The translations under genes were made by a program, and so were the position numbers. From assembly GCF_000146325.1 (NCBI RefSeq), contig NZ_GL397067.1:726919-790918 (forward strand): 64,000 bases of DNA, read 5' to 3'. The notes beneath the pieces are model-generated. The model was not told where the DNA came from and did no database searches. It saw only the letters and a program-made list of their open reading frames with translations. Positions 2,589-60,760 of the stretch are shown piece after piece (the first letter of the stretch is position 1; each line of letters starts with the position of its first letter). Source of the DNA: Pediococcus acidilactici DSM 20284. GTDB taxonomy: Bacteria > Bacillota > Bacilli > Lactobacillales > Lactobacillaceae.

Positions 2589-3239
2589 CTAGCGAAAGTA
2601 CGAATAGTGTTTTTCAACTTTACGTAAAAAGAAAGTGCAAATTCCGGTTAAAATCAAGTACATAATCCCGACCAGGATAAACGGAACCAAGGTAACGTCA
2701 CGGGCCGCCGCTACGTTTCCTGCCCGGAGCAGGTCTCCAATCCCGATTACGTAAACTAGTGAAGAATCCTTAACCAGGTTAATTACTTCGTTACCAATCG
2801 ATGGGAGGACAATTTTGGCTACCTGAGGCAAAACCACCTTTTTAGTTGTTTGCCAGTAGGTCATTTGCAAGACCCGGCCTGCTTCATACTGTCCCTTATC
2901 TACCGACTGCAACCCGCCCCGGAAAATTTCCGCAAAGTACGCTGCGTAATTTAGGATAAAGGCAAACAACGCCGCTTCGTAACGCGGAAAGACAATTCCT
3001 ACGGTTGGTAGACCGTAAAAGACAAAAATTAATTGCAACAATAACGGAGTCCCCCGCATTAGCCAAACGTACGCGCTAATTATGTATTGCAACGGTTTGA
3101 ATTTCGAAACCAGTCCTAGCGCTAAAAATACTCCCAAAATTAAAGAACCGATAATTGTCCAAATAAAAACTTGTAACGTCATCGCCGCTCCGGAAAGCAG
3201 CGAAGGCAATATTTCGCTAATGTATTGAATATTAAACAT
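2589..3239 (-). CDS. Amino-acid ABC transporter permease
   Basis: Membrane subunit of the importer (HisM/GlnP type), 216 aa with about five hydrophobic segments. The EAA loop is visible as QYEAGRVLQMTYWQTTKKVVLPQ. The start is set at ATG 3239, which has AAGGGAG eight bases upstream; longer in-frame extensions run back into the T-box terminator and are not credible. It is the first gene after the tandem T-box leader, so expression should rise when the cognate tRNA is uncharged. Homodimeric assembly is usual in this family. Confidence 0.92.
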   Translation of the reverse strand: MFNIQYISEILPSLLSGAAMTLQVFIWTIIGSLILGVFLALGLVSKFKPLQYIISAYVWLMRGTPLLLQLIFVFYGLPTVGIVFPRYEAALFAFILNYAAYFAEIFRGGLQSVDKGQYEAGRVLQMTYWQTTKKVVLPQVAKIVLPSIGNEVINLVKDSSLVYVIGIGDLLRAGNVAAARDVTLVPFILVGIMYLILTGICTFFLRKVEKHYSYFR

Positions 3240-3244
3240 CTTTT

Positions 3245-3440
3245 CAACTCCCTTAGTATTAAAAAATCCCCTTAGACTAAATTGTCTAAGAGGACGAGTT
3301 AATCGCGGTTCCACCCCATTTTCGTTACTCGCTCGCGCAAAGTAACCTCACTAAGTTAAACACCCTTTATTGGTAAATGAGCTGTAACTACCCACGTTAC
3401 TGTCTCCAGTACAGTGGGAAGCAAAATCTACCGCGAAAAT
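3245..3440 (-). promoter_or_regulatory. Second T-box unit of a tandem leader (reduced Stem I)
   Basis: The conserved T-box GGTGGAACCGCGA lies at 3303-3315 (minus strand), followed by a terminator (CCTCTTAGAC / GTCTAAGGGG with a T-run, 3261-3295). A Stem III-like hairpin with GTTACT / AGTAAC precedes it. The expected Stem I is replaced by a shorter element: GGTAGAT pairs with ATTTACC, enclosing the hairpin CCCAC-TACTG-GAGA-CAGTA-GTGGG. I find no AGTA/GAA specifier loop, no apical T-loop motif and no clear specifier codon. The terminator and antiterminator closely copy those of the upstream unit. Confidence 0.8.
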
Positions 3441-3697
3441 AAAAAAATCCCCTTAGGCCGTAGCCTAAGAGGACGAATTATCGCGGTTCCACCTCATATT
3501 TATCAACTGCTCGCGCAGTCAACCTCAGAAAGTTGCATTAACTTAAATGATAACGGAATTACCGGATAACCCTAGTTATTTTTCAGGCTATCAACTCACA
3601 GATGTGGTTCATCTACGGCTTCGCCTAGGCTTGCACCATTCCCTAGGTCGCTTTTCGAAGTAACGTAGACTACTCTTCTGATCATTGTCAAACATAA
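3441..3697 (-). promoter_or_regulatory. First T-box riboswitch of the tandem leader, predicted His specifier
   Basis: Complete T-box leader on the minus strand. The Stem I base is followed by AGTA; the helix GTCTACG/CGTAGAT lies above the specifier loop; the apical region carries GGTGCAAGCC. The 3' side of the loop reads GAAC-CAC-A, putting CAC (His) at 3604-3606. The same register gives ATG in the metNIQ T-box of this window, which supports the reading. Stem III, the T-box GGTGGAACCGCGA (3481-3493) and a terminator (CCTCTTAGGC-TACG-GCCTAAGGGG plus seven T) follow. Confidence 0.88.
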
Positions 3698-3702
3698 GTA
3701 AA

Positions 3703-3730
3703 ATAATAGCAATTATTCTTTAAATGTCAA
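3703..3730 (-). promoter_or_regulatory. Promoter of the tandem T-box/ABC operon
   Basis: TTGACA (3725-3730) and TATTAT (3703-3708) are 16 bases apart, with an extended -10 TG one base upstream. Transcription should start near 3696, giving a leader of about 455 bases. Confidence 0.8.
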
Positions 3731-10049: not shown

Positions 10050-10289
10050 TTTCCAAAATAAAAAGCACTTTCTTCCTAAGAAATAGGACGAAAGTGCTTC
10101 GCGGTACCACCTAAATTGGGCATAACTGCCCCGCTTTGTCTTTGATAACGAACGTACTGTTCGATCTTTAAGTTCTGTGCCTTAAAGATTGGTTCATAAG
10201 CAACCCGATCTTCCGTGTTTAGAGACTTGCAGCCCCGTCCCCTCTCTGAAAAACACTGATGGAAAATCTCCTCTTAATCATCACCGTCA
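10050..10289 (-). promoter_or_regulatory. T-box riboswitch controlling valS (Val specifier GTT)
   Basis: The T-box GGTGGTACCGCG is at 10100-10111 on the minus strand, followed by the terminator GCACTTTCGTCC...AAGAAAGTGCTTTTT. Stem I has GATTTTCC/GGAAGATC above the specifier loop and an apical GGGCTGCAAG. The 3' side of the loop reads GG-GTT-GC, so GTT (Val) lies at 10202-10204, in agreement with the gene. The AGTA motif on the 5' side is replaced by AGGA. Confidence 0.9.
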
Positions 10290-10295
10290 AAAATA

Positions 10296-18136: not shown

Positions 18137-18341
18137 GAAGAAACCGAGGCATGCGAGAGGATTGGTTTCATATTCTTCCAACAAACATCTAACCGGGAAC
18201 CCGGATCGTACGTGAATTGTAGGCTCGTAAGCGAGAAACGTGCAGCGTAGGTATGGGTACCCACCTTGCCTTTTGGGTTAGATCCTGGCCAATCTGAACG
18301 GTGTCGTTAGTTCTTCCCCCACGTTAGGTGGGGCTTTTTTT
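18137..18341 (+). ncRNA. ssrS: 6S RNA (candidate)
   Basis: A non-coding stretch of about 180-200 bases with its own promoter and terminator right after rarA. The 5' end GAAGAA (from 18137) pairs with TTCTTC at 18311-18316, closing a long rod-like fold. An inner helix ATCTAACC / GGTTAGAT flanks a central region, and CTCG-TAAG-CGAG forms a hairpin, as expected of an RNA that mimics an open promoter and binds RNA polymerase. Size, closing stem and the rarA neighbourhood fit 6S RNA. No SRP, tmRNA or RNase P motif is present. Confidence 0.65.
18316..18341 (+). terminator. Terminator of the 6S-like RNA
   Basis: CCCCAC-GTTAG-GTGGGG followed by C and seven T. It ends 24 bases before the next gene. 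Confidence 0.9.
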
Positions 18342-60616: not shown

Positions 60617-60634
60617 GATCAACAAATAACTACT

Positions 60635-60713
60635 AACATTGCTGGGGTGCCACGCGGCTGAGATTATACCCATTGAACCTGATCTAATTAGGATTAGCGC
60701 AGGGAGCAGTGCA
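60635..60713 (+). promoter_or_regulatory. TPP riboswitch (THI element)
   Basis: The conserved GGGGTGCC, GGCTGAGATTATACCC, TTGAACCTGATCTAATTAGG and GCGCAGGGA blocks occur in order, closed by the P1 helix CATTGCT / AGCAGTG. It binds thiamine pyrophosphate and should switch off thiW. Confidence 0.96.
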
Positions 60714-60760
60714 TTAGCCAAGCTACGTATAATTGTGTTTTTACTGATTTTATGTAACCA

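Follow-up and report, generated by a model that had tools for sequence, protein, structure and literature searches.

Vitreschak and colleagues reportedly described a class of partially tandem T-boxes in the abstract of their 2008 paper. Leaders of this kind have one specifier hairpin and two terminator/antiterminator units. The class is treated as known in a portion of PMC7583486, where its mode of action is stated to be unknown. According to PMC9413887, hisYZ*X is preceded by His T-boxes in Lactobacillales, and five species of Enterococcus have tandem riboswitches. In a section of PMC12452182, artQ (COG0765) is one of the genes listed with a pair of T-boxes. Double glycine riboswitches and contiguous riboswitches, the latter touched on in the same section of PMC12452182, likewise have two sensing elements in series in one leader.

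Here we describe a leader from Pediococcus acidilactici DSM 20284, found in a 64,000-nucleotide stretch of DNA that was analysed as a whole (hereafter the window). With one Stem I and specifier and two antiterminator/terminator units, it is a partially tandem T-box. Unlike the double glycine and contiguous riboswitches, it has a single decoder, and what is doubled is the charging sensor and the switch. Window-type leaders differ from partially tandem T-boxes as described in having a covarying helix between the units, and in our reading of the two units as sharing one decoder. This helix, as predicted from sequence comparison, is an apparently undescribed element on a known class; no published account of pairing between T-box units was found in a literature search, most subscription papers being outside its reach.

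Anatomy of the leader and its operon

An Rfam covariance-model search matched the first unit over the full length of the T-box model (positions 1–219 of 219) at 114.5 bits, above the cut-off, and unit 1 is a full member of the transcriptional class RF00230 (Table 1). It had been predicted to carry a normal Stem I with a specifier, and it does; the specifier, read by eye, is a putative decoder of tRNA-His. The F-box is part of Stem IIA/B, according to a passage of PMC7583486. The linker hairpin of unit 1 has AAGTT (3544–3540) as its 5' arm and AACTT (3534–3530) as its own 3' arm.

Table 1. Features of the leader and of the downstream operon, in window positions.
Feature	Position	Strand	Basis
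Promoter-like TTGACA - 16 - TATTAT (putative)	3703–3730	minus	sequence read directly
Unit 1, complete T-box (Stem I, II, IIA/B, Stem III, antiterminator)	3466–3694	minus	Rfam RF00230
Putative specifier CAC (His), then A	3604–3606	minus	by eye in GAAC-CAC-A (3610–3599)
Stem IIA/B with F-box (CCGGTAATTCCGTTA)	3551–3565	minus	Rfam alignment; F-box placed by eye
Linker hairpin of unit 1, predicted partner of the unit-2 docking strand	3529–3550	minus	local fold and covariation with unit 2
Stem III of unit 1	3502–3524	minus	Rfam alignment
Antiterminator 1, T-box bulge GTGGAACCGCG	3469–3495	minus	Rfam alignment and sequence
Terminator 1, -21.1 kcal/mol, U run	3441–3475	minus	fold
TCGCGGT, complementary at all seven bases to ACCGCGA of both T-boxes	3430–3436	minus	sequence
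Two-tier hairpin GCUUCCCACUGUACUGGAGACAGUAACGUGGGUAGU	3387–3422	minus	folds at -16.3 kcal/mol
Docking strand of unit 2 (AAAGGGTGTTTAACTTA)	3352–3368	minus	duplex energy and family covariation
Stem III of unit 2, purine string TGAGG before it	3324–3347	minus	Rfam alignment, fold
Antiterminator 2, T-box bulge GTGGAACCGCG	3290–3317	minus	Rfam alignment and sequence
Terminator 2, -17.9 kcal/mol, U run	3261–3296	minus	fold
Gene 1, amino-acid ABC permease (hisY position)	2589–3239	minus	domain search
Gene 2, ABC ATPase	1936–2586	minus	domain search of 1936–2568
Gene 3, substrate-binding protein	1117–1935	minus	domain search

Unit 2 has the charging-sensor part of a T-box, with the T-box bulge, Stem III, and a competing terminator all present, and differs from RF00230 in lacking Stem I, Stem II, and a specifier. 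Searched alone (3445–3200), it yielded no full-length T-box match above the Rfam cut-off; the alignment obtained (3440–3287) scored 35.4 bits (gathering score 93) and replaced 90 Stem I model positions by seven bases. A Stem I, an AGTA/GAA loop, and a specifier are not visible by eye in unit 2, nor did Rfam match a Stem I within 3445–3200. The original prediction thus holds for the architecture, having described two near-identical T-box/terminator modules in series (the bulge is the same at both), of which the second keeps Stem III, T-box, and terminator without a normal Stem I, loop, or specifier; its coordinates were right within ~10 bases. The fold of 3445–3245 is more stable than those of 200 of 200 shuffled sequences (z -4.4).

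The two-tier hairpin of the window exists where it had been predicted. Its proposed role as a reduced and conserved stand-in for Stem I is refuted, as its sequence occurs in none of 10 other Pediococcus leaders and the Rfam alignment deletes Stem I. The spacer between terminator 1 and the unit-2 anchor is 8–36 nt in seven of nine two-unit Pediococcus leaders and 83 nt in the window. In a sister genome (G129) with 87% leader identity, the spacer is 80 nt long, differs in sequence and shape, and folds at -14.6 kcal/mol. Because this spacer is similar in length and also folds, a structured insertion may be common to the window and the G129 species.

The strand TCGCGGT pairs with ACCGCGA of T-box 2 in the MFE structure of unit 2 alone, and with T-box 1 once unit 1 is included in the fold. 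We considered it as a lock on T-box 2 and rejected it as a general mechanism, since among 11 genus leaders it occurs in the window and G129 only; it is kept as a species-level feature. Lying shortly 3' of terminator 1, it could dissolve antiterminator 1 once the polymerase is beyond.

By domain search, the operon downstream encodes an ABC importer of the polar amino-acid type, the permease domain TIGR01726 being the sole match above a curated cut-off among the matches listed. In the terms used in a portion of PMC9413887, the gene order is hisYZ*X. The substrate is probably histidine, as suggested in that portion. Elsewhere in the window lie an ordinary T-box (10081–10290, 95.4 bits) before a gene that by eye resembles valyl-tRNA synthetase, and a TPP riboswitch (60633–60722) and a 6S RNA (18138–18317), both above the Rfam cut-off.

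Occurrence of the second unit

The permease is present in 11 of 12 Pediococcus genomes, and 9 of these 11 leaders have the second unit by eye. The other two, L035 and L036, are single-unit leaders. In L035 (G103), the bulge context of the single unit, GGGGTGG, resembles that of unit 2 in relatives, and this leader possibly arose by deletion through recombination between both units.

Among named Lactobacillaceae loci, the Stem-I-less unit precedes the permease in 73 of 80 (65 by a first pattern and eight Levilactobacillus loci with a variant core) and one unit only occurs in seven; the sample is biased to close relatives because it comprises the best 80 of 488 relatives. One T-box per region is the rule in most genomes covered by PMC9413887, in contrast to this frequency, and the Stem-I-less second unit of the window falls below the Rfam cut-off. 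The T-box bulges lie 101–135 nt apart in the tandem leaders of the 80 loci and 178 nt apart in the window, owing to its longer spacer. Four Levilactobacillus leaders (L059, L064, L084, and L096) have an extra TGGCAYCGCG core ~300–380 nt upstream of unit 1, which may be a third unit or chance.

A strict pattern of two T-boxes 98–128 nt apart matched 65 of 395 Lactobacillales genomes. Twenty-eight of 30 fetched loci precede the permease, all in a second Lactobacillales family (f3, putatively Enterococcaceae), and the remaining two are chance matches in coding sequence. Nineteen of 20 further Lactobacillaceae loci also precede the permease. In the twentieth, L221 (G026), the units are 126 nt apart and precede an APC-type amino-acid permease, as judged by eye. 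A stretch of its unit 2, TTTTTATCGGGATTAA, would pair almost completely with TTAATACCGATAAAA, which lies upstream of unit 1 (one locus, no control), and the locus may represent a third system built in this way.

Across 105 leaders the T-box cores are 101–178 nt apart (median 112 nt), a spacing too short for a second Stem I with its own specifier, as in a fully tandem T-box; for comparison, the unit-1 core sits 203 nt into the 229-nt T-box of the window. The conservation of TGGNACC and of the core letters is not independent evidence, since the search patterns fix them: TGGNACC was required in both units by the order-wide, Bacilli, and family f14 searches, and the patterns used on the 80 named loci demanded most of the T-box core.

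The original prediction had also raised the possibility that unit 2 is a decaying partial duplicate, here taken to be without function. The two single-unit Pediococcus leaders are compatible with decay, as is the helix of the window described below, which is weaker than those of relatives. Retention of unit 2 in most Pediococcus leaders, in the great majority of the 80 best of the 488 Lactobacillaceae relatives, and in a second family argues against it, as do a helix that covaries and a Stem III that is intact (-10.3 versus -5.0 kcal/mol when shuffled, 105 leaders). We regard decay as very improbable.

Pairing between the two units

The strand of unit 2 directly 5' of its Stem III complements the 5' arm and loop of the unit-1 linker hairpin. 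This hairpin sits just 5' of unit-1 Stem III, and its stretch folds below its own shuffle mean in all 105 leaders. The pairing is GAGTTTAGTGATAA with TTATCACTAAACTC in Lactiplantibacillus daowaiensis, GAGTTGCTTGCAAC with GTTGCAAGCAACTC in Levilactobacillus koreensis, and AAGTTTAATCATTAA with TTAATGATTAAACTT in Paucilactobacillus nenjiangensis; P. oligofermentans, a relative of the last, has AAGTTTAATTATTAA with TTAATAATTAAACTT, a compensating change. The L. daowaiensis and L. koreensis helices comprise 12–14 unbroken pairs.

For 99 distinct pairs from the 105 leaders, the duplex energy is -19.8 kcal/mol, as compared with -10.8 ± 0.35 for partners swapped between loci and -9.8 ± 0.27 for shuffled ones, the shuffles here and for MFE and local folds preserving single-base composition only. 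The same holds separately for 71 distinct Lactobacillaceae pairs (-20.4 versus swapped -12.2 ± 0.49) and 28 f3 pairs (-18.2 versus swapped -11.6 ± 0.67). In a fixed register, which 64 of 69 leaders entered (five had no recognised anchor), 7.62 of 10 positions are paired over 53 distinct pairs, versus 4.72 ± 0.24 when swapped between loci (maximum 5.60 in 5000 swaps). We also tried a wide-segment duplex scan, which gave mixed and partly spurious partners in some rows and was replaced by the fixed register and tighter segments.

Covariation was assessed in an alignment of 84 distinct rows (63 Lactobacillaceae and 21 f3), whose register was set by the anchor sequence and whose pairs were not maximised; the other 21 of the 105 leaders were duplicates or had no recognisable anchor. 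Paired cells amount to 81.0%, versus 58.6 ± 1.1% in shuffles (0 of 500 reach 81.0%) and 29.7–48.2% when the strands are slid by 1–3 columns, sliding being the one control that keeps phylogeny, as swaps and shuffles ignore kinship. The covariation score is 0.614 (shuffled 0.218 ± 0.013, slid 0.091–0.212). Thirteen of 15 pairs change on both sides, a count that shuffles match in 339 of 500 cases, and further pair types show no clear excess over shuffles in this count (84 of 500). A separate count covered six positions beyond the 5' arm, namely those in the loop together with, in many rows, the start of the 3' arm that belongs to unit 1 itself. It matters because the unit-2 strand may be an inherited copy of the unit-1 3' arm, which would account for complementarity to the 5' arm and cannot do so for the loop. 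These positions are 74.0% paired (shuffled 45.6 ± 2.0%) and score 0.716 (shuffled 0.239 ± 0.025, slid at most 0.318).

Along the leader as a whole, the unit-2 strand has its most favourable partner within the linker of unit 1 in 78 of 105 cases (13.8 expected). At least eight long-range pairs occur in the MFE structures of 103 of 105 linker-to-unit-2 stretches (median 17; mean 3.1 with the strand shuffled), the exceptions being L095 and L216, and the helix contributes a mean MFE gain of 7.9 kcal/mol (0.75 with the strand shuffled). These gains were obtained with soft constraints, a hard constraint against long-range pairs having been discarded for implausibly large energy gains. Several Levilactobacillus leaders have no long unbroken pairing run. 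At the family level, sequence comparison makes the long-range helix between the units a well-supported prediction. In four f3 leaders (L193, L194, L204, and L210), the unit-2 strand has further partners on the 3' side of the linker hairpin; these extra pairs run towards the purines before unit-1 Stem III and would sequester the unit-1 sensor.

The window is a weak instance of this family helix. Its strands can be aligned as TTAAGTTAA-TGC with GTG-T-TTAACTTA, with further pairs possible, around the core TTAACTT (3359–3353) with AAGTTAA (3544–3538). The duplex energy is -12.5 kcal/mol, a value reached by 30 of 1000 dinucleotide shuffles; that of G129 is -19.9 kcal/mol, reached by 0 of 1000. This duplex of the window has 19 pairs, with one-base interruptions; the fixed register gives five contiguous pairs. 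The fold of the linker-to-unit-2 stretch contains the helix, with a gain of 6.2 kcal/mol; the MFE structure of the whole leader has three pairs between both stretches, none from the TTAACTT core, and the window is one of the 27 leaders missed by the location test. Perhaps the insertion and the TCGCGGT strand assist this weak helix.

A second instance, weaker than that in Lactobacillales, occurs in another Bacilli family (f14). Twenty of 398 Bacilli genomes, and 18 of 41 f14 genomes, matched the pattern, and f14 has 20 partially tandem T-box loci, matches L244, L260, and L263 having been left out by eye as not T-boxes. By eye, the longest open reading frame is DAHP-synthase-like in 12 of the 20 loci, and the specifier is TTC in most and TAC in L257–L259. 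The different family, gene, and specifier suggest that this system is independent. Here a separate Stem III is missing from unit 2 (-5.1 versus shuffled -5.1 kcal/mol; unit 1, -10.9 versus -5.4). Its strand pairs with its own unit-1 Stem III region at -23.4 kcal/mol, versus -19.7 ± 0.87 when swapped (best of 500, -22.3), and this region is the best partner in 13 of 20 loci, with 3.7 expected and seven misses; L270 has almost no pairing.

Possible use of one decoder by two sensors

It is reasonably probable, in our assessment, that the two charging sensors share one decoder, unit 2 docking on unit 1 such that the same tRNA-His is tested twice. Since the polymerase is past terminator 1 before the docking strand exists, the helix can be relevant only to unit 2 or to the finished mRNA. 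We infer co-transcriptional formation of the helix, transfer of the tRNA from one sensor to the next, and an effect on regulation. Uncharged tRNA-His on Stem I would stabilise antiterminator 1, and RNA polymerase would pass terminator 1. The docking strand, made next, would invade the unit-1 linker hairpin with the loop as toehold. The resulting helix would open the hairpin and loop out the whole unit-1 sensor with its Stem III, T-box, and terminator, which would place Stem III and antiterminator of unit 2 directly behind the same Stem I/II–tRNA complex. The 3' end of the tRNA would be tested again by unit 2, and the operon would be on only if the tRNA were uncharged both times. Two small leak values would then multiply, and the joint reliance of both sensors on a single decoder would likely make the response steeper without a second Stem I.

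Alternatively, unit 2 may be an independent sensor that binds a second free uncharged tRNA, tRNA-His or any, by its 3' end, with the helix compacting the spent unit 1. The original prediction had proposed a second switch reading any uncharged tRNA. That unit 2 is a second real switch is supported, and in Lactobacillales, where it retains Stem III and T-box, it might in principle work by itself. Opposite tRNA position 73, all but four of the 105 first units carry A (101), and the base varies among the second ones (69 A, 21 C, 11 U, and 4 G), as expected under relaxed specificity; the variation suggests that the second contact is looser and argues against a simple copy of step one. We rejected this base as a test of reading any tRNA, because the tRNA-His of the window's genome (L174 in G000) has C73 while both bulges carry UGGA, without pairing to C73. 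For His, the usual pairing between bulge and position 73 seems not to apply.

Reading of any uncharged tRNA by an independent unit 2 leaves unexplained the covariation of the linker loop with a distant strand, as well as the f14 leaders, whose second unit is devoid of a Stem III and shows a tendency to pair with that of unit 1. The affinity of a T-box without Stem I for tRNA should be low. According to parts of PMC7583486, Stem III with flanking purines and the antiterminator are necessary and sufficient to sense aminoacylation, as this alternative would need, and an antiterminator without Stem III had no appreciable tRNA binding, as would apply to an f14 unit 2 on its own. We consider the independent sensor quite unlikely.

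Unit 2 might instead be mainly a backstop terminator that lowers leak, with the helix serving RNA stability or processing, for example as an RNase site or by protecting the 5' end of the read-through mRNA. Across the 105 leaders, the regions of terminators 1 and 2 have similar stabilities (-22.7 and -21.5 kcal/mol, respectively), and the helix, at its median length in MFE structures, would suffice for a double-strand nuclease. An antiterminator is superfluous in a backstop; yet two bases of the unit-2 A1 helix just before the bulge are G in 97% and 100% of the 105 leaders, although no search pattern fixed them among the Lactobacillaceae. The strand also lies immediately before the sensor in both systems, a placement unneeded for a processing site. 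We consider a role mainly as a backstop unlikely.

The shared-decoder reading can be extended, more tentatively, to both systems. Partially tandem T-boxes may be two-step checkpoints for one bound tRNA, in which strand invasion displaces the first sensor from the decoder, a single round of transcription includes two examinations of the tRNA 3' end, and the switch performs kinetic proofreading, having arisen independently in his-transport leaders of Lactobacillales and aromatic-pathway leaders of another Bacilli family; we hold this as possible and somewhat short of probable.

The covarying helix suggests a concrete answer to how partially tandem T-boxes act, namely one decoder with two sensors. 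It also gives reason to re-annotate leaders whose second unit falls under the Rfam cut-off. If the reading is true, these leaders would be a case of natural RNA strand displacement that swaps expression platforms.
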